Positions 881-27,674 of a stretch of 64,000 nt of DNA are shown piece by piece. Both the position numbers and the translations under genes were made by a program. The notes under the pieces were generated by a model, which saw nothing but the letters and a program-made list of their open reading frames with translations, did not search any database and was not told the origin of the DNA. Location of the stretch: the NCBI GenBank assembly GCA_040223695.1, contig JAVKFU010000015.1:232534-296533 (forward strand). The letters are read 5' to 3'. Source of the stretch: Deltaproteobacteria bacterium. Its GTDB lineage: Bacteria > Desulfobacterota_D > UBA1144 > Nemesobacterales > UBA2774. Within the stretch, counting starts at the first letter, position 1; each line of letters starts with the position of its first letter.

Positions 881-2236
881 TCACGATTCTTCCTTCTGCT
901 TTAGCTTGTACAGGAGCGAGCGTCTGCTGATACCGAGGGTTTTAGCGGCCCTCGTGCGGTTGCCGCCGGTCTCGGAAAGCGCTCTGTCTATAAAGGCGTT
1001 TTCGACCATTTGCTTTGCCTCGTCGAATGAGAAATTATTCAGCAATCCCTGAAGCTCTGTGCTGTTTGGGGGTCTGCTTCCGGCCGGTTCGACCTTTTGT
1101 ATTATATCCGAATCCGAGAGTATCATAGCCCTTTCAATTATGTTCTCCAGTTCCCTCACGTTTCCCGGCCACTCGTAACGGGTGAGCTCCGCCATGGCCT
1201 CGGGTGATACATGCCTGATACGGGGATTTATCTGGCGCCTGTATTTGTCTATGAAATGTCCTACCAGAAGTGGAATGTCCTCTTTCCTCTCCCTCAAAGG
1301 CGGTATAAAGATTGGAAATACGTTTAGCCTGTAGAAGAGGTCGTCTCTGAATCTTCCGCTTGTGACGTCCTGCCTCAGATCGCGTGAAGTTGCGGTTATA
1401 ACCCTCACGTCTATATTTATTAATTTGTTATCTCCGAGCCTTCTGATTTCCTCTTCCTGAAGCACTCTCAAGAGCTTCGGCTGGAGGACCTGTGGGAACT
1501 CGCCTATCTCATCGAGGAACAACGTCCCCCCGTGCGCTTCCTCGATTAAACCCCTCTTCGAGCTGTTCGCCCCTGTAAAGGCCCCTTTGGCGTACCCGAA
1601 AAGCTCGCTTTCCATAAGGGGTTCCGGTATGGCCGCGCAATTTACGGCGACAAAATTAGCATCCTTTCTGTCGCTTTGGTTATGAATCGCCTTTGCGACC
1701 AGCTCCTTCCCGGTCCCGCTTTCGCCTGTAATCAAAACCGTTGTTTTGAAACGGGACGCCTTGCTCGAAAGCTCGATCACTTCGTCAATTGCCCTGCTTG
1801 AGTGTACGATGTCCGTGAAAGTATTTTCTGTTCCGAGCTCTTTTCTCAGATAGCTGTTTGCCGCCCTCAGCCGGTGTCTCTCCCGGGCCATGTGCATCCT
1901 CAGAATCAGTTCTTCGGAGTTAATCGGTTTGTTTATATAATCCGCGGCTCCCCTCTTTATGGCCTCGATGGAGCTTTCTATTGATCCGTAAGCCGAGATC
2001 ATAATGACGATTGAGTCGATATCCCGGCACTCCGGCTGTTGCAGGAATTCTATTCCGCTCATTCCGGGAAGTTTTATATCGCAGATTATAAAGTCGTACA
2101 GTTTTCCCGAAGCGATAAGGTCGATGGCCGCCCTCGCGTCCTCTGCGCTGTCAACTCCATACCCCTCCATCTGAAGTATGAGCGTAAGCGATTCCCTTAT
2201 TCCTCTCTCGTCGTCAATTACCAAAATTTTCTGCAT
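881..2236 (-). CDS. NtrC-family sigma-54-dependent response regulator
   Basis: The 451-residue protein has three domains in the classical order. The receiver (about 1-120) has acidic residues Asp8 and Asp9, phosphoacceptor Asp53 (ICDIKLPGM) and Lys104. The AAA+ sigma-54 activator domain (about 145-375) shows Walker A GESGTGKE (171-178), the sigma-54 contact loop GAFTGA (218-223) and Walker B LFLDEIGE near 241. A Fis-type helix-turn-helix ends the protein (NRTRAAKTLGISRRSLLYKL). Once phosphorylated it should drive open-complex formation at -24/-12 promoters. Its start overlaps the end of the sensor kinase gene by 23 bases, so the two are a cognate pair. Position next to a prepilin peptidase suggests, but does not prove, a PilR-like role. 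Confidence 0.95.
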   Translation of the reverse strand: MQKILVIDDERGIRESLTLILQMEGYGVDSAEDARAAIDLIASGKLYDFIICDIKLPGMSGIEFLQQPECRDIDSIVIMISAYGSIESSIEAIKRGAADYINKPINSEELILRMHMARERHRLRAANSYLRKELGTENTFTDIVHSSRAIDEVIELSSKASRFKTTVLITGESGTGKELVAKAIHNQSDRKDANFVAVNCAAIPEPLMESELFGYAKGAFTGANSSKRGLIEEAHGGTLFLDEIGEFPQVLQPKLLRVLQEEEIRRLGDNKLINIDVRVITATSRDLRQDVTSGRFRDDLFYRLNVFPIFIPPLRERKEDIPLLVGHFIDKYRRQINPRIRHVSPEAMAELTRYEWPGNVRELENIIERAMILSDSDIIQKVEPAGSRPPNSTELQGLLNNFSFDEAKQMVENAFIDRALSETGGNRTRAAKTLGISRRSLLYKLKQKEES

Positions 2237-3719
2237 TTTTATAATCCTTTGCCCTGGGAAAAATAATTTTAAAGGCGGAACCTTGCCCTTCTTTACTGTC
2301 TACACTGATTTTGCCGCCGTATGTCTCGACTATTCTCGCTGAAACCGACAGACCGAGACCCGTCCCGTGTCCCGGCTCCTTGGTTGTAAAAAACGGATCG
2401 AATATTTTGCTCCTGATCTCCTCCGCTATTCCCGCTCCGTTGTCCGTTATATTGATAAGCACAGTCGAGTCCGGGCGGCTTTGTGTGGAAATCGTTATTT
2501 CTCCCGAATCGGCTATAGCGTCCCTGGAGTTCAGAATTAGATTTATTATCACCTGAGACAGCTGATTGGGGTCGGCTTCGATGAGAGGGATATCCTCTTC
2601 AAGCTGAAACCTGACTGAAATCCTTTTCAAAACTCCCTGGCTGTTCAATATATCGACTGTGTCCCTTATTACCTGGTTTACGCTTAGCGTTTGAGGCGCC
2701 AGTTTCTTGGGACGCGAGTAGTCGAGCAGTGTTCTTATGATCCTGTCCACCCTGTCCACTTCCCTCTTGATCTCGTTCAGAAAATCGGTTTTTTTGTCCT
2801 CGTCTGTTCGTGACGACCTTTTCATCACGTCCACATATCCGTTTATGGCCGACAGGGGGTTTCCGATTTCATGCGCAACGCCGGCGGACAGCTGTCCCAG
2901 CGAAGCGAGTTTTTCCGCTTCGATAAGCTCTCTCTGGGTTGATCTCAGCTCCGCGTTCGCTTCTTCAAGCTCCTTGATCTTATTCCTGAGCTCTTTTTTC
3001 CCGCTCTCTATTTCGTCGTACATATTCCTGAGCGCGGAATGGAGCTGATTTATTTCCCTCACTCTGCCGACGTCGGCGCTCTCGGGGAACTTTCCGGCCC
3101 CGATCGACTCGGCGGTTCTGATGAGTTCATGAACCGGCCTGATAATCCTTCTCGAAAGTATGTAAAAACCGAAGAGCGCTATAATAATCAGGAACAGTAT
3201 TATCCACAGAGCAATGAGCCTCTGCCCCAGAACTATACTCTCCCCGAGTGAGGAAAGAGGCTGGTATATGAGCAGGGCGCCGTCCTTTTTTCCGGATACT
3301 CGGATGGGTGCCGCGATTTTAATTCCCCGGTAACTGGAGAATGGAGGTATGTTAACGCCCTCTATATCGAAAACCGCGTGACCCGCTCTCCCGGCCTCAA
3401 GAATAAGCGGGTCGCTCCTGCTCTCTTTACCGGCGGCTTCTGATGTGCTGAAGGATAATCTCTCATCTCCGATTGCAACGGCGCCCCAGGCTCCGGGATC
3501 CAGCACCTTTTTCAGAAATCCTATTCCTCCGTCTATGTCATTTTTCTCGAGGTAGGAATTCTCTAGCGCCGTGACAATTGACTTGACGCTGTCTATCTTT
3601 CCCTGAAGCGCGAATCTTTCAGTCACTTTAAATGCGATTATGCCGATAAGAAACATGGCGACCGCCGTAATAAAAAGAATATTTACAAGTACTTCTGCTC
3701 TTAAGCCTGTCTGTCGCAT
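2214..3719 (-). CDS. Sensor histidine kinase with extracytoplasmic domain and HAMP
   Basis: 501 residues. A first membrane segment (about 12-30), an extracytoplasmic region of about 130 residues with no motif I recognise, a second membrane segment (about 168-186), HAMP (about 187-240) and a short coiled coil lead to the HisKA dimerisation domain with H-box AGVAHEIGNPLSAING (phospho-acceptor His283). The HATPase_c domain has an N-box (INLILNSRDAI), G1 (DNGAGI) and G2 (GHGTGLGLS). This is a class I kinase that should phosphorylate the NtrC-type regulator encoded immediately downstream. PilS has six N-terminal membrane helices; this has two, so it is not a standard PilS. The ligand is unknown. 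Confidence 0.95.
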   Translation of the reverse strand: MRQTGLRAEVLVNILFITAVAMFLIGIIAFKVTERFALQGKIDSVKSIVTALENSYLEKNDIDGGIGFLKKVLDPGAWGAVAIGDERLSFSTSEAAGKESRSDPLILEAGRAGHAVFDIEGVNIPPFSSYRGIKIAAPIRVSGKKDGALLIYQPLSSLGESIVLGQRLIALWIILFLIIIALFGFYILSRRIIRPVHELIRTAESIGAGKFPESADVGRVREINQLHSALRNMYDEIESGKKELRNKIKELEEANAELRSTQRELIEAEKLASLGQLSAGVAHEIGNPLSAINGYVDVMKRSSRTDEDKKTDFLNEIKREVDRVDRIIRTLLDYSRPKKLAPQTLSVNQVIRDTVDILNSQGVLKRISVRFQLEEDIPLIEADPNQLSQVIINLILNSRDAIADSGEITISTQSRPDSTVLINITDNGAGIAEEIRSKIFDPFFTTKEPGHGTGLGLSVSARIVETYGGKISVDSKEGQGSAFKIIFPRAKDYKNAENFGN

Positions 3720-3812
3720 TTTACCCGTATGATACTGCCGGATGTAGAATTAGGGGACGAAAGCGAGTCCGTCTCCTATGTAATTGTAGGTCTTTTTTTT
3801 GAGGAGTGGTAA

Positions 3813-4640
3813 CTAAATCCTCAGACTGAAGCCGCCCGTGAAGACAAAAATTACGGCGGCCAGGGACAAAAAGGGGCCGAAGGGCAGGGCGTATCTCAGG
3901 TCCCCTTTCTTAAAGGCTATAACGGTCAGTCCGGAAACGGTCCCTATAATCGAGCTCACCAGCATTACGAATATTACGCCTTCCACGCCTAAAAATGCGC
4001 CGATCATCGCAAGAAGCTTAACATCGCCCATTCCCATTCCTTCCCTTTTTCTCAGAGCGAGATAGAGGAGGGCTATAATGTAGAGGAGGCCCCCTCCCAG
4101 AATTACACCGAATACCGAGTCCAGAAACGGCACTTCGTTCAGTATTCCGAAGAAGTCTCCGAGGTTAAACTCGATAATTTCCATGAGCTGCCGGCTCCTC
4201 CGCCAGTCCGTTATGAGACCGTTAAAAATGAGGCCAGCTATGATCCCCGGAATGGTGATAACGTTCGGTATAATCATGTGTTTAAGGTCTATGAAGGCGA
4301 TCACGATAAGTGCGAATATGAAAATCAGATAGAAGAGGGTTTCGATGGAGATTCCGAATTTCCATAATACGGCAGGAAAAAGCAGTCCCGAGAGAATCTC
4401 TACGATCGGATACCGGATGGATATGCGGGATTCGCAGCAGGAGCATTTCCCGCCTAGAAATAAATAGCTCAGTATGGGAATGTTATGATAAAATTTGATC
4501 CTTTCACCGCAGGATGTGCAGTGAGACGGGGGGTACGCTATGGATTCCTCGCGCGGCAGTCTGTAAATGCAGACATTGAGAAAACTTCCTGTTACCGCAC
4601 CCAGTATAAACGAAAAGATGTAGAGGACAGTTTGGTTCAC
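3813..4640 (-). CDS. pilD: Prepilin peptidase / N-methyltransferase (A24)
   Basis: 275 residues, normal length for PilD/GspO. The N-terminal methyltransferase segment has the two CxxC pairs of the zinc site (Cys41-Cys44 and Cys66-Cys69) after the GSFLNVCIYRLP motif. The two catalytic aspartates of the aspartic peptidase are Asp118 (FIDLKHMIIPN) and Asp206 (GMGMGDVKLL). Seven or eight membrane helices follow the family pattern. It cleaves leader peptides of type IV prepilins or pseudopilins at the inner membrane and methylates the new N-terminus. No pilin or secretion genes lie in this window. It starts 10 bases after the CDC48 gene, so the two are co-transcribed. Confidence 0.96.
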   Translation of the reverse strand: MNQTVLYIFSFILGAVTGSFLNVCIYRLPREESIAYPPSHCTSCGERIKFYHNIPILSYLFLGGKCSCCESRISIRYPIVEILSGLLFPAVLWKFGISIETLFYLIFIFALIVIAFIDLKHMIIPNVITIPGIIAGLIFNGLITDWRRSRQLMEIIEFNLGDFFGILNEVPFLDSVFGVILGGGLLYIIALLYLALRKREGMGMGDVKLLAMIGAFLGVEGVIFVMLVSSIIGTVSGLTVIAFKKGDLRYALPFGPFLSLAAVIFVFTGGFSLRI

Positions 4641-4650
4641 AGGGAATTAG

Positions 4651-6789
4651 CTATTCCGCGCGCTCGTTTTTAAGTTCTACGTTCGCTATGATTTTGCTTT
4701 TTATTTCTTTAAGCGCCTCGGAAAAGTGCCGTTCGGTTATCTTTAATTTTTTCTTCCTGTTGCTCAGGTGTTCCCTTATCGCTATTATAGAGGCCCTCTG
4801 ACAGAGGAGTTCTATGTCGGCTCCCGAAAGCCCGTCTGTTTCGGAGGCGACCCCCCTCAGCCTTGCGTCTCTTCCCATCGGTTTTCCGCGCGTATGAATC
4901 TTGAGTATCTCGTGGCGTTCTTCCTCGTCCGGATAGGGAATGTTGAGTATAAGGTCGAACCTGCCCGAGCGCAGAAGCGCATGGTCAACTATGTCTATCC
5001 TGTTCGTAGCCGCCAGCACGAGCACCTCCCTCAGGTCCTCCACTCCGTCCATCTCCGTCAGCAGCTGGCTTACTACCCTCTCCGAAACACGGGTCCCGTC
5101 GGTCTCTCTGCGGTGAGGGGCAAGGGCGTCTATTTCATCGAAGAATACTATGCAGGGGGCGACCTGTTTCGCTTTCTTGAACACCTCCCTGACCGCGTGC
5201 TCGGATTCACCGACATATTTTGAAAGCAGTTCGGCTCCCTTGACGGAGATAAAGTTCGCTCCGCTCTGGTTTGCGAGCGCCTTGGCCAGAAGTGTTTTCC
5301 CCGTGCCCGGCGGGCCGCAAAGAAGTATCCCCGTAGGCGCCTTCGTATCCGTTATCTCAAAAAGGTCCTTGTGAATAAACGGCCATATTACGGCCTCAAT
5401 GAGCTTGTCCTTTATTTCCTTCAGCCCCCCGATATCATCCCAGGTAACCTTGGAGATCTCGACGAATATCTCCCTTATGGCCGAGGGCTCGACTTCCTTG
5501 AGCGCTTCCATGAAGTCGTTCATCTCCACCTTGATCGGTGCGAGGTTCCCGTTGTTTTCAAATATCTCCTCTTCTTCGTCCTCGTAATCGGGAAGGGATT
5601 TTCGGAGTGATTTCATGGCGGCTTCACGGCAGAGGTTCTCTATGTCCGCCCCCACGAACCCGTGGGTCAAATCCGCGAGCCGTTCGAGGTCGATGTCCTC
5701 TGAAAGAGGCATCCCCCTGCTATGGACCTCGAGTATCTGTAAACGTCCGTTACGGTCGGGCACGTCCAGGCTTACTTCCCTGTCGAACCTCCCCGGCCTT
5801 CTGAGCGCGGGGTCGAGCGCGGAGGGGAGATTTGTGGCTCCTATTACGACTATGTTCCCCCTGTGCCTCAGGCCGTCCATTAGCGAGAGCAGCTGGGCTA
5901 CTATCCTCTTTTCGACATCGCCCGAGACCTTCTCCCGTTTTGGCGCGATAGCGTCGAGCTCATCGAGGAAAATTATAGAAGGCTGGTTTCTGGTCGCAAT
6001 CTCAAAAATGTCCCTTAGCCTGGCTTCGCTTTCACCGTAAAATTTGTGCATTATCTCGGGGCCGTTTATCACCTGAAAATTCGCATTCGTTTCATGAGCT
6101 ACGGCTTTAGCCAGAAGGGTTTTACCGCTGCCTGGCGGTCCCACGAGGAGTATACCTCTCGGAGGGTTAATTCCGAGCTTGTCGAACAGCTGAGGGTATC
6201 TGAGCGGCAATTCAACAATTTCCTTTACCTTGTTTATCTGGTCCCTCAAGCCGCCTATATCGTCGTAGCTTACCCTCGAGCTGTCGAACTTTCCCTTGGG
6301 CCTCTTTCTTATATCGAGCTTTGTTGAAGCCCGGATAATAACCGAGTTTGAGGGGATTACTCCAATGACATTGAAATCTTCGAGCCTCGAGCCCGGGAGC
6401 TTGATCCTGATTTTATCGCCTATTGTTATGGGAAATCCGTCCAGCCTGTCAAGCAGGTATTTATTTTCGTTTCCGTTGTAAAGAACGTCGTTGTTCCTGG
6501 GCGCCAGCACCACCTTCGTGGCTGATTTGTTGTCTATCTTTTTAACGAATATATGCTCGTCTATATCAACCCGGGCGTTTTCTCTTGTAATTCCGTCCAT
6601 CTGTATTATGGACTTCTCGGAGAGTGATTTCTCAAGCGGCATAACCCGCACGACCGTTTTTCTCTTTCCGCCTACTTGCACCAAATCCCAGGAACCCACG
6701 CCTATCTCGCGCATGTCTTCCGGATTAAGCCTAGCAAAGCCTTTGCCCGAGTCCTTTTTTGCCAGTTCGCATATCTTAAGAGCTATCAT
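4651..6789 (-). CDS. CDC48/VAT-type AAA ATPase with two AAA modules
   Basis: 712 residues with the architecture of archaeal VAT and eukaryotic p97. An N-terminal double-psi-barrel plus small domain (about 1-160) is followed by D1, with Walker A GPPGSGKT (217-224) and Walker [10 protein letters not shown], and D2, with Walker A GPPGTGKT (492-499) and Walker B VFFDEIDA. Both modules have the GAT/AATN sensor-1 and R-finger segments ([16 protein letters not shown]). Such ATPases form hexameric unfoldases that extract or feed substrates to proteases. The D2 pore loop and C-terminus give no adaptor hint. It is first in the minus-strand run and has a good promoter 9-45 bases upstream. Bacterial copies are scattered, so past transfer from archaea is possible. 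Confidence 0.95.
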
Positions 6790-6804
6790 ATCAGTCCCTA
6801 GAAG

Positions 6805-6833
6805 AGGATACCGCTCACATATTTTTGGGTCAA
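6805..6833 (-). promoter_or_regulatory. Sigma-70-type promoter for the CDC48-pilD run
   Basis: Read on the minus strand, TTGACC (6833-6828) and TATCCT (6810-6805) are separated by 17 bases. The predicted transcript would start near 6798, only about 9 bases before the ATG at 6789, so the leader would be very short, holding at most the AGGGA ribosome site. Sequence match only. Confidence 0.5.
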
Positions 6834-6860
6834 GGATATTTTAAGTTCGCCGATTTGCGA

Positions 6861-6889
6861 TTGAATAAACCTTTCTTCTTTATTATAAT
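6861..6889 (+). promoter_or_regulatory. Sigma-70-type promoter for recF
   Basis: TTGAAT (6861-6866) and a perfect TATAAT (6884-6889) with exactly 17 bases between them, pointing at recF. It is divergent from the CDC48 promoter, with about 30 bases between the two -35 elements, so both could respond to one regulator bound between them. Confidence 0.65.
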
Positions 6890-6918
6890 TTTTCAAATCC
6901 TTATTTTACAACGCTCTC

Positions 6919-8019
6919 GTGAAACTTAGATCCCTGACACTTATGAACTACAGGTCGTATACGGCCCAGAACTTTATCTTTCATGACAGAATGAATCTCG
7001 TTTACGGTGATAACGCTCAGGGCAAGACCAACCTGCTCGAAGCGATTCACTTTCTTTTGATGTTCAAGCCCTTCAAACAGGTGAGACACGAGGAAATAAT
7101 CAACTTCGGCGCGGAGCTCTGCAGGATCAAGGGTGAAATCGAATCCGGCTCCGGTCTTGACGAGGTCCATATACTGCTGAGCGGCGAGCGGAAAACGGTA
7201 AAGCTGAACGGAAAAATCATTTACAGGACTTCCAGGATACTGGGCAGATACAATGTGGTTTCGTTCCTTCCGTCCGACCTCGAGCTCATAAAAGGAGGGC
7301 CGCAGGGGAGAAGAAGATACCTCGACGGCCTCGTCTGCACGCTCGAGCCCGTACACTTGAAGGACCTAAAGCTGTATCACAGATTACTTATGCAAAGAAA
7401 TGCTATACTGGCGAAGACTTCCGGCCTCACTCCGCAGAAGCTCGAGATATGGGACGAGAAGCTGGCCGAGACGGGCGCGCGGGTTGTATCGAGGAGAATT
7501 AATTACATAAAGAAAATCGCCCCTCATTTGAAACGCATATATGCGTCTACTTCCGGTCAGGAATCGGATGTAGGTTTCCACTATGCGGGTTCTTTCGGCG
7601 CAGAGAGCGATCCGGAGCGGGAGTTCAGGGAGCAGCTCAGGTCGAGATTTGAAAGGGACAGAAAGCGCGGCCATACAACGGCAGGGCCTCACAGGGATAT
7701 CCTTGGTTTCAGCATCGGCGGCAGGGACGCGTCTCTCTACGCGTCCCAGGGCGAGGCTAAAAATCTGGCCCTTGCGCTAAAGGCGTCCGAGATCGAGCTC
7801 ACCAGGGATTCCCTGGGAAAGACACCGATTTTGCTTCTGGACGACGTGACCAGCGAGCTTGACGAAGGGCGGAGAAAGTTCCTGTTCAGGCTCCTTCAGG
7901 ATTTCACCGGTCAGATTTTCATCACCGGCACAAGCCTGAATGAAATTCTTGGCGGTGGCGAGGCGCGGGTATTCCATATTGAAGGGGGAAAAGCCCGCCA
8001 CAAACAAATTACCGGATAG
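6919..8019 (+). CDS. recF: DNA replication/repair protein RecF
   Basis: 366 residues, standard RecF length. The N-terminal strand MKLRSLTLMNYRSY is the classical RecF opening. Walker A GDNAQGKTN spans residues 30-38. The ABC signature lies around ASQGEAKNLALALK and Walker B around ILLLDDVTSELDEGRR. RecF is an SMC-like ATPase that, with RecO and RecR, loads RecA at gapped DNA. The start is GTG at 6919; no good ribosome site precedes it, and the transcript predicted from the promoter at 6861-6889 would have a leader of only about 20 bases. It is not next to dnaA, dnaN or gyrB, its usual neighbours, so the replication-origin gene order is not kept here. Confidence 0.96.
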   Translation: MKLRSLTLMNYRSYTAQNFIFHDRMNLVYGDNAQGKTNLLEAIHFLLMFKPFKQVRHEEIINFGAELCRIKGEIESGSGLDEVHILLSGERKTVKLNGKIIYRTSRILGRYNVVSFLPSDLELIKGGPQGRRRYLDGLVCTLEPVHLKDLKLYHRLLMQRNAILAKTSGLTPQKLEIWDEKLAETGARVVSRRINYIKKIAPHLKRIYASTSGQESDVGFHYAGSFGAESDPEREFREQLRSRFERDRKRGHTTAGPHRDILGFSIGGRDASLYASQGEAKNLALALKASEIELTRDSLGKTPILLLDDVTSELDEGRRKFLFRLLQDFTGQIFITGTSLNEILGGGEARVFHIEGGKARHKQITG

Positions 8020-15064: not shown

Positions 15065-15616
15065 TCAATATTCCGTTTTGTCCGGGGAGTTGTAATAATC
15101 CTGCTGATATTTTAAGGGTACATCCCCGATATTGTTTGTTATATGAAGGTTCCCTTCGTCGTCCACCCATTTATAGATCGGATTTCTCGAAGGCGGATTT
15201 GAGGCATAATCCGGGCCGTTTCCGGTCTCTTCATAAGGGGACGTAGTGGAAATGGATGGTTCAGGGCTTTCTTCTCCCTCTTCCGTGGTTCCCTCGTCTT
15301 TATCCTTCTCCGTCTCGGGCTCTCTACGGGGGTTGATCTCGAGGTTGCTCTTTCGTTCGCTGCTTCGGCCCAGTGTACTGCCGCCTTCCCCGCTCTCCAT
15401 CGTGGAAAGTCCGAAGTTGTTGAGGTCTTCCTCCGGCCAGTAGTAATACTCGTACGGCTGCTCCTCTATGTTTACGATCGGCTCGGAGGGGTCCGTACCT
15501 GTTTGGCTCTCGGTCTGGTTATTGGAAGGCCTGGATTCTCCCGTTTGCGCGGAGGCTTCGTAAGTCAGGAATGTTATCGACATTATAATAAGACAAATAA
15601 CCGGGACTATTCTCAC
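15065..15616 (-). CDS. Secreted DUF4124-domain protein
   Basis: 183 residues. The reading frame extends further upstream, but the GTG at 15616 is preferred: GAGGAG lies just before it and a signal peptide follows at once (VPVICLIIMSITFLTYEASA, then QTGE). The mature chain has a long low-complexity, acidic Glu/Ser/Pro-rich stretch (about 60-145) and ends with the DUF4124 motif (YKWVDDEGNLHITNNIGD), a short beta domain found in many proteobacterial periplasmic proteins. Function unknown; probably an envelope-anchoring or wall-binding role. It is convergent with the J-domain fusion gene and backs onto the repeat-rich gap. Confidence 0.8.
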   Translation of the reverse strand: MRIVPVICLIIMSITFLTYEASAQTGESRPSNNQTESQTGTDPSEPIVNIEEQPYEYYYWPEEDLNNFGLSTMESGEGGSTLGRSSERKSNLEINPRREPETEKDKDEGTTEEGEESPEPSISTTSPYEETGNGPDYASNPPSRNPIYKWVDDEGNLHITNNIGDVPLKYQQDYYNSPDKTEY

Positions 15617-15749
15617 TTCACTGCTCCTCTTTGTAGTTGTGATAATAATTATAACCCGAAACGCATCTGTAATAGTAAATCCTGGATTAAGACAAACGGT
15701 ATTCTCCCCGGTTTGATCCATGCACACATTGCGCGCCTCTACGGTTACT

Positions 15750-15770
15750 GCGCAGAATCTGCGCTCATAT
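15750..15770. repeat. 21-bp palindromic repeat, copy 1
   Basis: A near-palindrome of two 7-base arms (GCGCAGA and TCTGCGC) followed by TCATAT. The same 21 bases recur at 15943-15963, 193 bases away. Confidence 0.8.
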
Positions 15771-15829
15771 TTAATTTCTCCGGACCCCCTGCTTCTCAAC
15801 AACTGTAGGAGCGGCATCCGGACGCGACG

Positions 15830-15938
15830 CACACGTAGTGTGATTTTACGATTCCTACTCAACACGTCTGCTGTAGCGAGCATCCTCTCAAGCCGCTTCA
15901 CTCCCTTATGCCGGCGGATGCCATCCGCCCGCTCATCC
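15830..15938. repeat. 109-bp dispersed intergenic repeat, copy 1
   Basis: This block matches 23936-24044 along its full length with about a dozen substitutions. It begins CACACGTAGTGTG (itself an inverted repeat) and includes a GGCGGATGCCATCCGCC hairpin. Neither copy is coding. It is a dispersed non-coding element of unknown function. Confidence 0.85.
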
Positions 15939-15942
15939 CGAG

Positions 15943-15963
15943 GCGCAGAATCTGCGCTCATAT
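15943..15963. repeat. 21-bp palindromic repeat, copy 2
   Basis: Identical in sequence to 15750-15770; together the copies flank the 109-bp block, suggesting that they were copied as one composite unit. Confidence 0.75.
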
Positions 15964-16008
15964 ACGATTTTTTTCGGCGCCCACGCATGTCACCGGCATC
16001 GGATAAAG

Positions 16009-16834: not shown

Positions 16835-19800
16835 CTATTTTTCGGAAGGGGTCGGTATCTTGAAAAATATGGTGTATAGAACTGGCACTACGACAAGTGT
16901 GAGTATGGTCGCGAAAAGGAGTCCGAACATTATCGTAACCGCCATGGATACGAAAAACGCGTCCTGAAGGAGCGGGACCATGCCGAGTATAGTGGTGGCG
17001 GCTGCCATCATGACAGGGTTTAAACGGCTTACCCCCGAATCGACTACCGACCTGTACCTGTCCTTACCGCTCCTGATCTCCGTGTCGATCTGGTCGATAA
17101 GAACTATCGCGTTTTTAATCAGCATTCCGGACAGGCTCAAGAGTCCGAGCAGCGCCATAAAACCGAATGGCTGCCTGAATAACAGAAGTCCTACCGTAAC
17201 GCCTATTATAGATAGAGGTACGGTAAGCCATATTATGAGCGGCTGTCTCACGGAATTAAACAGGAATACGACAATAAGCACCATGAGTCCGAAGAATACC
17301 GGGAGCTTGGCTTTCAGTCCCGCCTGCGCGCGCGCCGAATCCTCGGCCTCTCCGCCCCAGGCGATATAATAACCCGGCATGTCTTTAATCGGCAGCTGAT
17401 CGGCGTCACGTATGGGAATGACCTCATTATTGAAGTCCTTAAAAGGGTTATCCCCGGGGCCGAAGTCCTTACCGGTTATTGCGCCGACGTCCACGTTCAG
17501 CACTTTTTCTATCCGTGGCTTAACCCTGGCCAGAAGCTCGCTCGGCAGCTCCGTTCTCGGATCGGCGTGTATTTTAATCATCGTCACGCGGTCCCTTCTG
17601 CCGATATTCGCGTCCTCCGTTTCAGTGCTAAAACCGGATATAACCTGTCCTGCCGGGATCATCTTTCCCGCGGCCGTGCTCCATATAAGCAGGCTCTGAA
17701 TGGTGTCAAGATTCTGTCTTTCATAATCGGGAGCTCTTGCGATAATGGGAAGCAGCTGGCCTTCAAAGCTGCTTTTGTCTCTGTACACTCCAGTTTGAGT
17801 CCCGGAAAACGACTCTTCAAACGCCCTTGCAACCTCCGGTCTGGAAACCCCTAAAAGGCTAGCCTGGGCTTCTTCGAGCTGGGGCCTTACGACCTTTATC
17901 TTCTCCTTCCATTCGTCCCTTACCGCCTTTGCCTGGGGATCGGACCTCAGCACTTCTTTTGCCCTTTCCGCAAGCTCTCTGAGCACCGTCCGGTCGGGCC
18001 CGCTTATGCGGAGCTGTACCTTGCCCCCTTCGCCCGGTCCGAGGAGAAATTTTCTTACATTCACGACCGCGTTCGGCAGAAGCCCTTCAAGATCGTTCTG
18101 CGTCTTTTGAAAAACCGGATCTATTACGCCGTAATCTTCGACCGAAGCCAGAATTACCCCGTAGCTGGACGAGCTTTTACCCGGCACATAAGTCAATAGA
18201 AATCTGGGATCGCCCCCTCCGACCTGCGTTATAACGTCCGTAACGCCTTGTATGTTCGAGAGATACTCTTCGGCCTCCGTCAGGTCTTCCGCCGTATTCT
18301 CTATGCGGTATCCCTCAGGGAAGTAGAATTCGACGAAGAACTGCGGCCTCGTGGAATTGGGAAAGAACATAGTCTTCACGAAGCCGAATCCGATTAGCGA
18401 GGCAACGAATATTCCGACAACAAGGCCGACCGTAACGTAACGGTTTTTTATCGCCGCTATGAGCAGCTTCTTGTACGCTTGAAAGAATTTCCCCGAGTAG
18501 GGTTCTTTTTCTTCGCGCCTGCCTTTACCGGATTTTGCCTTGCCGATCAGGAAATATTTACATAGAAGAGGGGTCACGGTCACGGCTGTGACCCAGCTCA
18601 GCATCAGGGAAATCAATATGACCTGAAACAATGATCTGGTGTACTCGCCGGTGCTGTCCTTTGAGGTCCCTATCGCGGCGAACGCGAGCACCGCAACGAC
18701 TGTTGCGCCCAGGAGGGGGAGAGCAGTCTGTCCCACCACTTCGTTTGCGGCGCCGATTGCGTCCAACCCCTGCTCCATTCTGATTTTCATGCCGTCCACG
18801 ACAACAATTGCGTTGTCCACGAGCATGCCGAGCGCTATTATGAGCGCGCCGAGCGAAATCCTCTCAAGTGTTATATTCCACATCCCCATAAACAGGAAAG
18901 TACCGCATATGGTAAGAAAGAGAATTCCGCCGATAATGAGTCCGCTCCTCAGACCCATGGCGAAAAGAAGCACGACAATCACAATCACAACGGCTTCAAG
19001 AAGGTTTATTATAAATCCGTTAATCGCTTTGGTTACCGATTCAGACTGCAGTGATATAACCTCAAGCTCCATCCCCAGAGGGGCGAGTGGCTCAAGCTCT
19101 TCGACCTTCTCGTCGATTCCCTCTCCCATGGTTACGACGTTTCCGCCGGGAACTGTTGAAATCGCGAGACCGATTGCGGGTTTGCCGTTATATTTCAGTA
19201 TGTTTTTCGGAGGGTCTATATAACCGCGTCTTATATCCGCCACGTCCCTCAGATATACCAGGCTGCCGCTCCCGCGGCTGCTTATGAGTAGATTGCCGAA
19301 CTGTTCCTCCGAGGTGAACTCCCCTGTAGGGCTTATCGGAATTATCTCCGGGCCGACATCGATCCTCCCTGCGTCCACCGGCAGGTTCTTTGCTCTGAGC
19401 GCGTTGTATATGTCCTCTTGTGATATTTCGAGCGCGGCCATTTTAGGGCGGGACATTTCGACGTAAATGGCTTCGGTCTGCGCTCCGTAGAGGATTATCT
19501 TCTTTACGTCCTTTACGAGGAGCAGTTCGCGTTTAAGCAAGTCGGCGTAATCCTTTAGCTCGGCGTACGTATAACCCTCGCCGGATATTGCCAGATACCC
19601 GCCGTAGACATCGCCGAAATCGTCGTTTACAAGTGAGGGACCCGCCCCGGGCGGTAATTGAGTCTGATAATCGTTTACCTTCCTCCTTAGCTCGTCCCAA
19701 ACCTGGGGCAAGCCGTTCTTGTCGTATTCATCTTTTATTATGGCTTTCACGGTTGAAAGTCCGCGGGAGGACATTGATTCAACGCGCTTTAACTGCCCCA

Positions 19801-20020
19801 GCTCTTGGGCGGCTTTTTCAATTACGTTTGTAACTTCTTCCTCGACTTCCTCGGCGCTCGCGCCGGGATACGGGGTCAGTATTACGGCTTCCTTAATCGT
19901 AAATTCCGGGTCCTCCAGGCGTGGCAGGCTCTGAAAGGACTTTATTCCCACGAACAGCATAACCAGGGTAAGGCTAATCGTTATTACGTTTTTTCTTATG
20001 GAAAATTCGGCTATTTTCAT
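16835..20020 (-). CDS. Efflux RND transporter permease (AcrB-type)
   Basis: 1061 residues, full length for the AcrB/HAE family. Twelve membrane helices are laid out in two halves around large periplasmic loops. The N-terminal helix (FSIRKNVITISLTLVMLF) and DPEFTIKEAVILTPYPGASAEEVEEEV are typical. Helix 4 has GMLVDNAIVVVDGM: the AcrB proton-relay Asp pair is Asp-Asn here, as in many members of this subgroup. It should pump amphipathic compounds out, driven by protons, as the inner-membrane trimer of a tripartite complex. It is the last of three genes; the adaptor is 28 bases upstream and the TolC-like gene precedes that. Substrate unknown. Confidence 0.95.
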   Translation of the reverse strand: MKIAEFSIRKNVITISLTLVMLFVGIKSFQSLPRLEDPEFTIKEAVILTPYPGASAEEVEEEVTNVIEKAAQELGQLKRVESMSSRGLSTVKAIIKDEYDKNGLPQVWDELRRKVNDYQTQLPPGAGPSLVNDDFGDVYGGYLAISGEGYTYAELKDYADLLKRELLLVKDVKKIILYGAQTEAIYVEMSRPKMAALEISQEDIYNALRAKNLPVDAGRIDVGPEIIPISPTGEFTSEEQFGNLLISSRGSGSLVYLRDVADIRRGYIDPPKNILKYNGKPAIGLAISTVPGGNVVTMGEGIDEKVEELEPLAPLGMELEVISLQSESVTKAINGFIINLLEAVVIVIVVLLFAMGLRSGLIIGGILFLTICGTFLFMGMWNITLERISLGALIIALGMLVDNAIVVVDGMKIRMEQGLDAIGAANEVVGQTALPLLGATVVAVLAFAAIGTSKDSTGEYTRSLFQVILISLMLSWVTAVTVTPLLCKYFLIGKAKSGKGRREEKEPYSGKFFQAYKKLLIAAIKNRYVTVGLVVGIFVASLIGFGFVKTMFFPNSTRPQFFVEFYFPEGYRIENTAEDLTEAEEYLSNIQGVTDVITQVGGGDPRFLLTYVPGKSSSSYGVILASVEDYGVIDPVFQKTQNDLEGLLPNAVVNVRKFLLGPGEGGKVQLRISGPDRTVLRELAERAKEVLRSDPQAKAVRDEWKEKIKVVRPQLEEAQASLLGVSRPEVARAFEESFSGTQTGVYRDKSSFEGQLLPIIARAPDYERQNLDTIQSLLIWSTAAGKMIPAGQVISGFSTETEDANIGRRDRVTMIKIHADPRTELPSELLARVKPRIEKVLNVDVGAITGKDFGPGDNPFKDFNNEVIPIRDADQLPIKDMPGYYIAWGGEAEDSARAQAGLKAKLPVFFGLMVLIVVFLFNSVRQPLIIWLTVPLSIIGVTVGLLLFRQPFGFMALLGLLSLSGMLIKNAIVLIDQIDTEIRSGKDRYRSVVDSGVSRLNPVMMAAATTILGMVPLLQDAFFVSMAVTIMFGLLFATILTLVVVPVLYTIFFKIPTPSEK

Positions 20021-20048: not shown

Positions 20049-21128
20049 TCAATCGAGCAGCGTGACTTCCATCCCCTCCTGAAGCTGAGTTATGCCGGCT
20101 ATGACGACCATATCGCCGGTTTTGAGACCGCTTAGTATTTCAATGTCTTTTTCGCCCGTAACCGCGCCGACCGTTACTTTCCTTTTATGAACCGTTTGAT
20201 TGTTCTGATCTACGACCCATACGTACTGGTCGGTTCCGGTTCCGGGTATTACGGCGATTGCGGGAATGACGAAGTAACTCCCGTCGTCATTTTGCTCTAT
20301 CCTCCCCCGGTAATGCACCTGAGCGGTCATGCCCGGAAGAACCACAATCCCCTCGGGCTGATCCATGCTCAGTGTAGCGCGGTAGGTCTGCGTTTGAGGA
20401 TCGGCCTGCGCGCTCACCTCTTTAACCTCGAGCGGGAACTCCTCTCCGGGCGCCGACTGGAACGTAGCGTAAAGCTTCAGCATCTCGCTCCTGTCTCTCG
20501 ATCTCGCGATCACATTTTCGGGAAGGTCGATTACGATCTCAACCTCCGTTATGTCCTGGAGGCTCAATATATTGTCAAAGGGCCTCACTTCCTGGAAATT
20601 CTCGACGTATTTGGCGCCTATAAAGCCGTCGAACGGGGCTCTTAGGTACGTATAATCGAGGTTCGCCCTGGCGTAATCCAGCCGCGCCTTCGCGGTGTCG
20701 CGTTTCGCCCTTCTTACATCCAGATCGGCTACCGGAACCGCGTTTCTCTCGTACAGGTCCTCGTACCTGTTGTAATCCGCGACCGCTTCGATGTATTGAG
20801 CGTAAGCCTCGTCGTACGCGATCCTGTAATCCCTCTGGTCGAGCCTCGCGAGGAGATCCCCTTTATTTACCTCGTCTCCCTCGTTCACCGGAAACTCGAC
20901 GAGAGGCCCCTGGACCCGGAACGATAAATTTACCCTTTGTGACGCCTGCACTTTTCCCGGAAAGCTCCTCCCGATTCCCTGCTCTCCCCCGAGAGTCATC
21001 GTCTTTACGGGTCTAATTACCTGCACCGAGGTTTCCTCGCCTTTATCCCCCTTGCACGAAGCGAAGATGAGTATGAAGGCGAATGAAGCGACGATTATCG
21101 TTGATAAAAGGTTTTTTAATCTTCTCAT
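20049..21128 (-). CDS. RND efflux periplasmic adaptor lipoprotein
   Basis: 359 residues, the AcrA/MexA family. The N-terminal signal ends in FILIFASC, so Cys26 should be acylated and the mature protein held in the inner membrane. The barrel-sandwich phrases VNEGDEVNKGDLLARLDQRDY and YLRAPFDGFIGAKYVENFQEV are the two halves of the lipoyl fold, separated by an alpha-hairpin (about 105-155). The C-terminal part has GMTAQVHYRG and the membrane-proximal domain. It should bridge the pump permease and the outer-membrane channel. Located between those two genes, in one operon. Confidence 0.93.
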   Translation of the reverse strand: MRRLKNLLSTIIVASFAFILIFASCKGDKGEETSVQVIRPVKTMTLGGEQGIGRSFPGKVQASQRVNLSFRVQGPLVEFPVNEGDEVNKGDLLARLDQRDYRIAYDEAYAQYIEAVADYNRYEDLYERNAVPVADLDVRRAKRDTAKARLDYARANLDYTYLRAPFDGFIGAKYVENFQEVRPFDNILSLQDITEVEIVIDLPENVIARSRDRSEMLKLYATFQSAPGEEFPLEVKEVSAQADPQTQTYRATLSMDQPEGIVVLPGMTAQVHYRGRIEQNDDGSYFVIPAIAVIPGTGTDQYVWVVDQNNQTVHKRKVTVGAVTGEKDIEILSGLKTGDMVVIAGITQLQEGMEVTLLD

Positions 21129-21217: not shown

Positions 21218-23662
21218 TTATTGTCCGGGTAAGTCATTCGTATTTTTATTCTCGGCTTCTTTCTCCGATCCGCTGCCGGTTCTTTTATTGTAGAATTGAT
21301 CCAGCTCTTCAAACCACCTGTCCCGATATTCCGGCGTTGTAAAGAAATCGAATTTGCCCGCCGCGCGCTGTACATCCATCAGATCGATAAGGAAATTGTA
21401 TGTCGCGTTCGCCGCGTTTAGATCCGCCGAGAGAGCGGCGTTCTGCGCGTCGAGGAGATCGATGATTGATACCACTCCCCGCGAGTAGGAATCGGTCACA
21501 AGCTCCAGGTTCTTGTGCGCGGCGTCGGCGGCGTCAAGCGAAAACCTTATGCTCGGGTAAGACGCCCCCGCATCGTTTAAAGAGGTTCTTATCTCTTCCT
21601 CGACCCTCTCCGCGGTCGAGTCTCTTTCATAGCGCAGTCTGGATAGCTCCTTTCGCGCCTTCCTGTAATCGGCGATCTTACCTCCGCCCCTGAAAAGAGG
21701 GAATGAAGCCTGAAGCTGAACTACCCATTCCGTGTCGTCAGGGCTCGTAATATCAAACGGCAGCTGGTTCCCGAAGTCAACGTTGCTCCCCGCGCCGCCC
21801 TCATACAGGAAATGCCTTATTTCGCCGAACGCGAGAACGGTGGGGGACCAGAACGCCCTTTTCGTGGAGGTAAGAATTCTGTCCTGAGCCGCGATAAGTG
21901 AATCCACGTTCGATATCTCGGGCGACTGCTCCAGACCCTGACTGACCATGAACTCCATAAACAACTTGAATGATTCGGGGTTTTCCACGTATTTGTCGAG
22001 TCTGGGGTCGCTCACCAGAAGGGAAGGGTCGTCGAGGCCCGCCTCCACCGTGGTAAACTGCTCGCCCTGGGGTCTGTGAAGGAGCCTGTTGACGAGTATT
22101 TCGGTATTTTTTCTTGCGGCCTCCGCATTGACTACTTCTATCCTGTCTGAAGAAATTTCACTTTCCCACCTGAACACCTCGGCGGGGCTTGCCACTCCTA
22201 TATCCCGTCTCACCTTGGCTATTTCCAGATTGGATTTTGACAGCTTGAGATTGTCTTTCTGTATGTTCTCGATTGTTTTTGCCCTGAGCACGTTCAAGTA
22301 GCCAATCGCCGTTGCGGCGATAATGTCGAGCCTGATCTCGTCCCGTGTGAATACCCGCGAGTCCTGTAGTCTCCGCTGTACAGTCACGTTCGACCATGCG
22401 GACTCGGAATATATAAGCTGGCTCAAGTTCCCTCCGGCGCTCAGCTCCCGCTGCGGCTGAGTCCCGAGGCTCGCCTCGGCCCTGTCCTTGTCTATATATG
22501 TGTTTTCCAGAAAAATATCTGACTGGGGAAGAAGCCGGGACATCGCGAGCTTAATGTCCTGTGCGCCCGCGGCGACGAACTCGTCAGCCGCGAGCAGGTC
22601 CAGGTTCGCCTCGACCGACTCCTCCACCGCGTGCTCCAGGGTCAGGATGCGACCTGTCTCGGGCGCGGCGTCGTTTATCAAATCGGCGTCCGTCAATACC
22701 TGCCAGGTGGGTGAGAATTTGATACTGCGCGCCGTAGCCATATTTATGATAAGCCTTTCTTCAATGTTGAACTCGACCGGGAAATTTCCGGCGTTATCGC
22801 CGAGCAGTATGCTCTGTACAACCAGAGCCGCCCGTCTGGCCTCTCTGGTCAGGTTTAACTCAGGAGTAAGACCCATGAGCGCGCCTTCATCCACTTCGCT
22901 TTTCCCCAGCATCGAAAAACTGGGGAGATTCTTTTCGATGATACCGTCGTACAGCTCCGCTTTCTCGGCTTCGGTATAATTCAGGATCGGCGATACATAG
23001 ACCGCCTGCACGTCCCGGGGGATAGACGCGAGCGTATTCTGGACGCTCCTCGTTACGGGTATGAGCACTATTTCGATACCGTTTTCTCTCGCGATCCTGT
23101 TAACTGTATTTTCGATTCCGGGAATTAGGCGGGTTACTACCGGCATGTAGAGTAGCGCCATTCTTTGAAAGCCGGCTATTTCCTTAAATGTTTCTATATC
23201 CTTTCCGAGTCTCTGGGGCCTGGAAAGATAATAAAAATTCCTGACGCCGCTCCCCCCGTCCTCTGCTACAGTCAAACCGAGAAGAGAGGGCTCGATGACC
23301 CAGGGTGCGATTACCGGTTTCGGGAAGTCGGTTCTTCGGGCAGCCTCGGTTGATCCTATTATTCCGAGCGTGATCAGGATATCCACTCCGGGGTCCGACA
23401 GCTGTCTCTCTATAGCTTTACTCACACCTGCTTCGGTCCAGTCCGCCGTGATGACCTTGTCCGCCGGAAAACGTACCGTGAACTCGTCCTTGGTAAGGTC
23501 GGTAATCTCTTTCATGTAAGTGTCTAATGTCTTCGAATTTAGGTCGGAGGGTCCGTCGAATATTATACCGATATTGATACCGTATGAGACTTCCGTTGCC
23601 GCTGTTAAAAGGAATAAAATAATAGGAATGAGGAAAAGCAGTTTCTTGTCCCTCGACGTCAT
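21218..23662 (-). CDS. Fused ABC-substrate-binding-like domain and TolC outer-membrane channel
   Basis: 814 residues, about twice the usual TolC length. After a signal peptide (about 1-28) residues 29-335 look like the ABC_sub_bind (PF04392) periplasmic binding fold: DILITLGIIGSTEAARR, VYVSPILNY and the closing ARSIKFSPTWQVLTDAD phrase are characteristic. From about 340 to 780 the protein is a TolC-type outer-membrane efflux protein with two repeats of the coiled-coil/strand pattern (TLEHAVEESVEANLDLLAAD; YSRGVVSIIDLLDAQNAALSA). It is the first gene of the three-gene pump operon; the adaptor starts 90 bases on. The N-terminal domain could sense or deliver the pumped ligand. The fusion is uninterrupted: no frame problem is seen. 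Confidence 0.88.
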   Translation of the reverse strand: MTSRDKKLLFLIPIILFLLTAATEVSYGINIGIIFDGPSDLNSKTLDTYMKEITDLTKDEFTVRFPADKVITADWTEAGVSKAIERQLSDPGVDILITLGIIGSTEAARRTDFPKPVIAPWVIEPSLLGLTVAEDGGSGVRNFYYLSRPQRLGKDIETFKEIAGFQRMALLYMPVVTRLIPGIENTVNRIARENGIEIVLIPVTRSVQNTLASIPRDVQAVYVSPILNYTEAEKAELYDGIIEKNLPSFSMLGKSEVDEGALMGLTPELNLTREARRAALVVQSILLGDNAGNFPVEFNIEERLIINMATARSIKFSPTWQVLTDADLINDAAPETGRILTLEHAVEESVEANLDLLAADEFVAAGAQDIKLAMSRLLPQSDIFLENTYIDKDRAEASLGTQPQRELSAGGNLSQLIYSESAWSNVTVQRRLQDSRVFTRDEIRLDIIAATAIGYLNVLRAKTIENIQKDNLKLSKSNLEIAKVRRDIGVASPAEVFRWESEISSDRIEVVNAEAARKNTEILVNRLLHRPQGEQFTTVEAGLDDPSLLVSDPRLDKYVENPESFKLFMEFMVSQGLEQSPEISNVDSLIAAQDRILTSTKRAFWSPTVLAFGEIRHFLYEGGAGSNVDFGNQLPFDITSPDDTEWVVQLQASFPLFRGGGKIADYRKARKELSRLRYERDSTAERVEEEIRTSLNDAGASYPSIRFSLDAADAAHKNLELVTDSYSRGVVSIIDLLDAQNAALSADLNAANATYNFLIDLMDVQRAAGKFDFFTTPEYRDRWFEELDQFYNKRTGSGSEKEAENKNTNDLPGQ

Positions 23663-26384: not shown

Positions 26385-26800
26385 AGTTTATAACGAGCTG
26401 CTTGATTATTTTAAAACAATTGTGACGGTCAACGAAAGTGCATTCCCCGTTTTGTTTAACGCCGATCTTTTTAAAATAGTCAATATTCTCAGCGCATGTC
26501 ATTTGACCAACGGGAGAAATCTGTCTTTTCCCCCTCTAGTAAGGAGAGAGAGTTCGGAGATCAAGAGAAGGATGGTGCGCAGCTCATAGGAGATTTTTAC
26601 GCAATACACGCCGAGCATACTATTTGGAAATCTAACGCGGGTACGTGAACTCTATCTCCTGAGAGAGTCTGGCTTCAGGGCGGGGCGGTAGCCCGCTCAG
26701 GTTTAGTACCTAAAAAATCAGTACGATAAGAGACAGAGTATTCTCATAAATGGCCGTTGATGTTGGCGGGCAATAAATTTCAACATTGGATTTATTTTAG
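26385..26800. other. Non-coding gap upstream of the cyanovirin-like gene
   Basis: About 415 bases without a convincing reading frame. It has no recognised repeat or RNA. Only the promoter at its end is readable. Confidence 0.4.
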
Positions 26801-26809
26801 TGTTATAAT
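26801..26809 (+). promoter_or_regulatory. Extended -10 promoter (TGTTATAAT) for CVNH gene
   Basis: A TG dinucleotide one base before a perfect TATAAT, 44 bases upstream of the start codon. No good -35 at the proper distance, which extended -10 promoters do not need. Confidence 0.5.
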
Positions 26810-26852
26810 TGTTACCAGAAAAATACAGATTTTATCCAAATGGAGGAGCGAG

Positions 26853-27674
26853 ATGGCTGGATTCCCGGGTTTCAATAGAACTGTTATATATTCATTCTTT
26901 TTTGTTTTCACACTTCTTTTTTACATCTCTCATGCGAGCGGGCAGGTCAGAGCTCCGAGCGGCAGCTATCAGGAGACCTGCAGGGGTATTCAGGTAGTCG
27001 GAAGCAACCTTATCGCGCAGTGCAAAAACATAGCGGGCGACTGGAAGAACTCAACGCTTGTGTACGCCACCTGCGAGGGAGATATCAGAAACGATAACGG
27101 ACAGCTAAAGTGCAAGCAGAAGATAAAACCCGCCAAGGCGCTTCCCGCCGGATCTTATAAAAGGACATGCCAGAACATGAGGATCGACGGAGACTATCTG
27201 AGGGCGAAGTGCGAGAAAAAGAACGGGGTCTGGAACAACACAAAGATAAAATACAAGAAATGCTCCGGTGATATATGGAACGACAACGGTGAGCTTACAT
27301 GCAAGGACTCGGGTTCAAAAAATACTCCGAGCGGGAGTTATAAAAAGAGCTGCAGGGACTACTATGTGGACGGCAACAGGCTCTACGCCAAATGTGAGAA
27401 GAAGAACGGAAGGTGGAATGACTCCTCCATCAATTATAAGAATTGCAACAAAGATATATGGAACGATAACGGAGTGCTCACCTGCGGCAACAAAGAAAAT
27501 ACGAATCTGCCGAAGGGAAGCTACAAGAAAACTTGCAAGGATCTTTATGTTGACGGCAACATACTGGAAGCCCGGTGCTTGAATAAAAACGACAAGTATT
27601 CCCATACGAGCATCAATTACAAGAAGTGCAATAAAGGTATTTGGAACGACAGCGGGAAGCTGAGGTGTAACTAA
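26853..27674 (+). CDS. Secreted protein with four CVNH (cyanovirin-like) repeats
   Basis: 273 residues from the ATG at 26853, chosen over earlier ones because GGAGG lies 6 bases before it and a signal peptide follows (VIYSFFFVFTLLFYISHASG). The mature part is four tandem repeats of about 56 residues starting near 37, 100, 161 and 222, each opening with GSY and a Cys and closing with a pattern like DIWNDNGELTC. Every repeat has four Cys. This is the cyanovirin-N homology fold: two such motifs make one domain, so the protein could form two mannose-binding domains. Bacterial CVNH proteins are thought to bind glycans; a surface or defensive lectin is possible. High Lys/Asn content sets it apart from its neighbours. 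Confidence 0.85.
   Translation: MAGFPGFNRTVIYSFFFVFTLLFYISHASGQVRAPSGSYQETCRGIQVVGSNLIAQCKNIAGDWKNSTLVYATCEGDIRNDNGQLKCKQKIKPAKALPAGSYKRTCQNMRIDGDYLRAKCEKKNGVWNNTKIKYKKCSGDIWNDNGELTCKDSGSKNTPSGSYKKSCRDYYVDGNRLYAKCEKKNGRWNDSSINYKNCNKDIWNDNGVLTCGNKENTNLPKGSYKKTCKDLYVDGNILEARCLNKNDKYSHTSINYKKCNKGIWNDSGKLRCN

Follow-up and report, generated by a model that had tools for sequence, protein, structure and literature searches.

The 64,000-nucleotide stretch analysed here (the window) encodes a polypeptide in which a signal peptide is followed by an entire ABC_sub_bind fold and then by a full-length TolC core, and this fusion is a conserved class of TolC-type outer membrane factor that many phyla inherit as one unit. 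The architecture is new, although the families it combines are known. The proteins are already deposited in RefSeq under generic names; a published description of the fusion was not found in the open-access literature searched, which was covered in part. The open reading frame (21218–23662, minus strand) starts with ATG and codes for 814 amino acids in a single frame without stop or break, as the initial annotation had stated, and the three genes on the minus strand follow in the order fusion, adaptor (MFP) and RND pump, which bears out the assignment of the fusion as first gene of an RND pump operon. The fusion is the sole PF04392 protein of its source genome, and the closest relatives in genome collections are labelled Candidatus Dadabacteria. 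The coordinates of the individual features are compiled in Table 1.

Table 1. Features of the fusion gene and its operon, in positions of the window.
Feature	Position	Strand	Basis
N-terminal signal peptide, residues 1–28, no lipobox Cys	23579–23662	−	sequence MTSRDKKLLFLIPIILFLLTAATEVSYG
ABC_sub_bind-fold (two-lobed periplasmic binding protein) domain, residues 29–329	22676–23578	−	Pfam, PDB profile search, AlphaFold2, Foldseek
Linker, residues 330–338, from the end of the binding-protein fold to the first channel core residue	22649–22675	−	alignments, AlphaFold2
TolC-type outer membrane factor, residues 339–780, two OEP repeats	21323–22648	−	Pfam, Foldseek
Insertion of ~16 residues (550–565), equatorial region	21968–22015	−	alignment
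C-terminal tail, low confidence, and stop codon	21218–21322	−	pLDDT <50 from residue 798
Periplasmic adaptor (membrane fusion protein, MFP), same operon	20049–21128	−	TIGR01730 250.6 bits, over cut-off
RND pump, same operon, TM4 motif VDNAIVVVD	16835–20020	−	Pfam, sequence comparison

Pfam, profile comparison, AlphaFold2 and Foldseek agree on the domain identities and boundaries proposed before, namely a binding fold followed by a TolC channel. The HMM search suggested by the initial annotation returned both families over their cut-offs, with 134.9 bits and two repeats for PF02321 (OEP) in the rear half and a narrow pass for PF04392 in the front domain (27.0 bits against a cut-off of 25.9, residues 83–316). 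A chance PF04392 match near the cut-off is ruled out by the family profile together with the Foldseek fold: the front-domain profile of 29 relatives matches two PF04392 proteins of solved structure, 3lkv (E 4.4e-10) and 3lft (3e-5), and 3lft, 3lkv and 6hni are the top Foldseek matches of the front domain (TMt 0.74–0.77), the two-lobed fold being complete. Of 30 relatives, 20 give a PF04392 match at E ≤ 0.01. For the full chain, Foldseek lists TolC structures first, with a TMt of up to 0.85 to 2vdd (TolC), and the rear half is predicted by AlphaFold2 and Foldseek to adopt the β-barrel and long α-barrel fold. The AlphaFold2 monomer reaches a mean pLDDT of 85 over the full length and of 92.8 when the front domain is predicted by itself, with a full-length pTM of 0.70 that leaves the placement of the two halves relative to each other uncertain. 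As the signal region of the window protein contains no cysteine at all, and so no lipobox cysteine, a lipoprotein anchor of the kind found in lipidated OprM-type factors was dropped; a cysteine in the signal region is present in only some relatives of the fusion.

The fusion was found in six other Dadabacteria at 64–74 % identity, one copy being cut by a contig end, and on the Sulfuricurvum kujiense plasmid pSULKU01 (RefSeq NC_014754.1), where it lies between a TetR gene and HlyD-RbbA-ABC-2 permease genes under the RefSeq name ‘ABC transporter substrate binding protein’ (WP_041667226.1). Besides these carriers, it occurs in about 25 genomes of roughly ten other groups. A scan of GTDB species genomes with an alignment yielded 32 loci, nearly all with front domain and channel in one frame and the rest truncated at a contig end or interrupted by a stop, while the same scan with a single sequence as query yielded no loci; as the scan demands exact conserved motifs, the 32 loci and the prevalence outside Dadabacteria are lower bounds. 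Named as deposited for the metagenome-assembled genomes (MAGs), the groups are Gemmatimonadota, Calditrichota, Aminicenantes, Acidobacteria, KSB1, Zixibacteria, Latescibacteria, several Proteobacteria, Deltaproteobacteria including Desulfobulbus and an Olavius endosymbiont, Sulfurimonas and Chlamydiae. The compilation of genomes and contexts that the initial annotation had called for places the fusion in many groups, beside RND or ABC-2 exporters.

This distribution bears directly on whether the protein might be an artefact or a relic, that is, an assembly join of two genes or a channel with a non-functional passenger. A PF04392 score just over the cut-off, the Cetobacterium plasmids, which encode a channel with a degenerate front domain, and one related channel without the domain could be read in this way. 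An assembly join or frame error is nevertheless ruled out by the intact single frame in independently assembled relatives, including the plasmid NC_014754.1, and the near-constant length of the front domain (~308 amino acids) as well as purifying selection on both halves (NG86 dN/dS of about 0.12 and 0.05, with dS near saturation) speak against a passenger, so that we regard this explanation as extremely improbable. The identities of the front and rear halves between species correlate with r = 0.90, which fits halves inherited together, although shared phylogeny alone would yield part of this value.

In a phylogenetic tree, the fused channels, the Cetobacterium forms and a domain-less channel from an Acidobacteriota genome (locus L113) form one clade against the other Dadabacteria channels with a support of 100/99. 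The fork that places the long-branched L113 among the fused channels is weakly supported, so that the tree makes no firm case for or against strict monophyly of the fused channels. An insertion at residues 550–565 is common to all fusions, the Cetobacterium forms and L113 and absent from the other Dadabacteria channels; as a marker of the front domain this equatorial insertion was rejected, since L113 has it without the domain. At the L113 locus (1885–7072), this channel lies beside an EmrA-like adaptor and a FUSC/aromatic acid exporter-like permease.

Conversely, the front domain without the channel was rare among the genomes checked. The Acidobacteriota genome with the domain-less channel, G073, also encodes two proteins of ~545 residues in which a close relative of the front domain is followed by BON repeats (L101 862–2511 and L106 829–2463). 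BON domains bind membranes, and from these fusions the front domain looks like a module used in envelope proteins. The Desulfobulbus MAG G072 encodes proteins that each contain two ABC_sub_bind domains in tandem (L104 577–2502, L126 1032–3146). The Sulfurimonas MAG G081 contains an ABC_sub_bind-like domain before Cache and GGDEF domains (L136 82–2466; PF04392 25.0 bits, just under the cut-off), a sensor use of the PF04392 family, and an Aureimonas PF04392 protein matched by the front-domain profile adjoins genes for a SpoIIE phosphatase and a response regulator.

The pumps that accompany the fusion are diverse, and the gene order around the fused channel varies among the loci. The RND partners sort into two subfamilies, each at least 52–59 % identical inside and 32–36 % between each other, with the window, L043, L045, L057, L061 and L068 in one and L046 to L070 in the other, while the Cetobacterium RND partner is a third type. 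At three loci, from Sulfuricurvum, Sulfurimonas and a gammaproteobacterium, an adaptor-RbbA-ABC-2 permease set stands in place of the RND pump. The initial annotation had pointed out that no ABC permease is present. This holds for importers, none of which adjoins the fusion within the window, the relatives having RND or ABC-2 exporters instead, but not for ABC systems at large, because elsewhere the fused channel adjoins the ABC-2 exporter system. The window-type RND pump occurs in 6 of 58 Dadabacteria genomes, five of which have the fusion while the sixth, G040, is 59 % complete; in the fusion genomes G003 and G042 (82 % complete) no match to it was detected. The G003 fusion is an orphan without adaptor or RND genes. 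Since the same fused channel stands beside such varied pump types, the front domain belongs to the channel and not to one pump or substrate.

Several neighbouring features were recorded alongside. The G003 orphan lies back to back with an MlaE-STAS/ATPase/MlaD type lipid-transport operon (L040 8489–16543). A small exported protein that matches DUF4124 below threshold and contains a motif resembling YYWPEENL (window 15065–15988; L036 3353–3919; L040 7489–8055) is encoded after the operon in Dadabacteria and directly after the orphan fusion in G003. A cyanovirin-N homology (CVNH) repeat protein (window 26757–27674; L036 11366–12181; L041 1978–2796) is encoded divergently and directly adjoining the fusion in several Dadabacteria, with MFS and SDR genes intervening in the window. 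Almost every RND partner in the fusion family has the VDNA element seen within the TM4 motif of the window pump; the corresponding residues of AcrB from E. coli are D407-D408 (PMC13095208).

To see what the front domain has kept and lost, the fused domains were compared with 13 standalone PF04392 ORFs, one of which is counted twice; almost all come from the same genomes. In the fused domains the NVTGV hinge motif reads NLxYL, a hydrophobic loop resembling PLxxL takes the place of the D-N-T type loop, and the YxxLG region has become R-x-A-R-R and is longer by a two-residue insertion. CD0873, VC_1101 and SP1069 have two described positions for side-chain selectivity (PMC6816091), and neither of these is kept, as judged from the profile alignment and not from coordinates, and the amino-acid ligand-contact residues of the solved members are likewise replaced according to the alignments. 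We infer that the front domain came from the amino-acid-binding ABC_sub_bind family and has probably lost the known mode of amino-acid binding. Conservation in the fused domains is uneven: the cleft loops of lobe 1 average 2.9 bits and those of lobe 2 only 1.8, with 3.2–3.4 bits for the hinges and a domain mean of 2.4, whereas the cleft loops of standalone PF04392 proteins lie at about 1.8–2.4 bits in both lobes without such asymmetry. G100, K115, P116, A119, P120, G260, R276, R277 and N307 are invariant, and D36, G100, S104, A119 and P120 are conserved residues that face the cleft. P120 and R276 differ in the BON fusions, a hint from two sequences of one genome that these two residues may go with the channel.

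In established TolC structures the mature N-terminus is located at the equatorial domain, outside the duct. For TolC and OprM it has been assigned to the equatorial domain on the outer surface of the duct (PMC8277102), and in the fusion the alignments let the channel core start at residue 339 directly after the binding-protein fold without an extra spacer, so the front domain should lie at the waist of the channel, on the outside of the duct and away from its entrance. Once exported by Sec, the rear halves would trimerise in the outer membrane, and three front domains, each attached to the first core residue, would ring the equatorial belt outside the duct, immediately beneath the membrane. 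In this position they may serve as a collar by which the channel is held, positioned or stabilised, together with its contacts to the adaptor, the neighbouring protomer or the wall, with the conserved lobe 1 and hinge as docking face and lobe 2 free. We favour such a built-in equatorial collar, at slightly less than even odds. Its position is deduced from TolC topology, the AlphaFold2 model being that of a monomer, while the variable lobe 2 and the conserved lobe 1 and hinge count in its favour. A structural role alone, however, leaves the conservation of the cleft-facing residues unexplained, and the close domain-less channel L113 presumably works with its FUSC pump. In E. coli, YbjP sits at the TolC equatorial domain in a 3:3 arrangement (PMC13095208; PMC13082787); since laboratory efflux does not depend on YbjP (PMC13082787), this analogy says little on the need for a collar.

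The cleft conservation leads to a reading in which the collar is ligand-responsive: the domain would bind a periplasmic small molecule or a wall or lipid fragment, and the motion of its lobes would alter adaptor docking or channel dilation. The two-lobed fold is complete and the hinge intact, the conserved residues cluster on the lobe 1 cleft loops and the hinges, and PF04392 domains are met in signalling contexts, as the front domain of the Sulfurimonas Cache-GGDEF protein, albeit at a sub-cut-off score, and next to the Aureimonas phosphatase and response-regulator genes. Set against this are the replaced amino-acid-contact signatures, the lobe 2 cleft loops, which are among the least conserved parts of the domain, and partner pumps too varied for one obvious signal, and we consider the ligand-responsive collar the main rival, possible though less likely than not. 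Somewhat less likely still is the specific mechanism by which a ligand in a lobe 1/hinge pocket closes the lobes and alters channel docking or opening, which would make the duct regulated at the outer membrane and not only by pump and adaptor. The front domain may have a sensing role, but the ligand-gated exit duct or feeding device envisaged by the initial annotation found no support, given the waist position by TolC topology, the replaced binding signature and the variable lobe 2.

The feeding variant of that idea, in which the domain catches a substrate and hands it to pump or duct in the manner of ABC importer binding proteins, draws on the presence of a substrate-binding-protein fold beside export pumps. 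We hold it to be very doubtful, since by TolC topology (PMC8277102) the attachment at the waist lies outside the duct and far from the pump and the channel entrance, the substrate-contact signature is not conserved, and the partners of one fused channel type range over two to three RND subfamilies plus an ABC-2 pump; feeding of one substrate is in particular disfavoured by these unrelated pump classes. A further variant of the collar differs in its docking target, the domain binding peptidoglycan, LPS or lipid, or an outer-membrane partner instead of the channel. The BON-repeat fusions of closely related domains and the divergent CVNH gene that directly flanks the fusion in several Dadabacteria fit such an envelope anchor, but no wall- or lipid-binding motif was recognised in the domain and the BON fusions number only two, both from one genome, which renders this variant improbable.

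TolC-type channels are regarded as passive ducts that the adaptor opens from below. In the clade described here, which spans about a dozen bacterial groups and is paired with several classes of pump, a binding-protein domain of 300 residues is fixed to the start of the channel, by topology at its waist. Either a waist collar is a common need of such channels, to which YbjP in E. coli would be an independent answer, or some exit ducts are able to sense something, and the cultured carrier Sulfuricurvum kujiense makes this question testable.

Compared with known systems, the fusion shares with the TolC/OprM family (PF02321) the two OEP repeats, the predicted TolC fold and the operon with adaptor and RND pump, but adds the 300-residue binding-protein domain before the core; relative to the other Dadabacteria channels, it has ~16 extra equatorial residues. 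The nearest solved relatives of the window RND pump by sequence are MexK and the RND transporter of PDB 6vej, and the outer membrane factors of the known MexK-type pumps are not known to carry a binding-protein domain. SP1069 (3lft, TrpX-like), VC_1101 (3lkv) and CD0873 (6hni) have the same fold and element order as the front domain and are detectable by profile, yet they are only 16–20 % identical to it: the NVTGV hinge, the D-N-T loop and the aromatic-side-chain selectivity positions are lost, while the front domain gains a conserved KPxxAP and RR, is fused to a channel and has no ABC importer nearby. YbjP resembles the front domain as an extra periplasmic domain at the TolC equator, with three per channel expected at the position deduced here, but it is a lipoprotein of its own whose DUF3828 fold is unrelated (PMC13082787, PMC13095208), whereas the front domain is covalently attached, not lipidated and present in many phyla.
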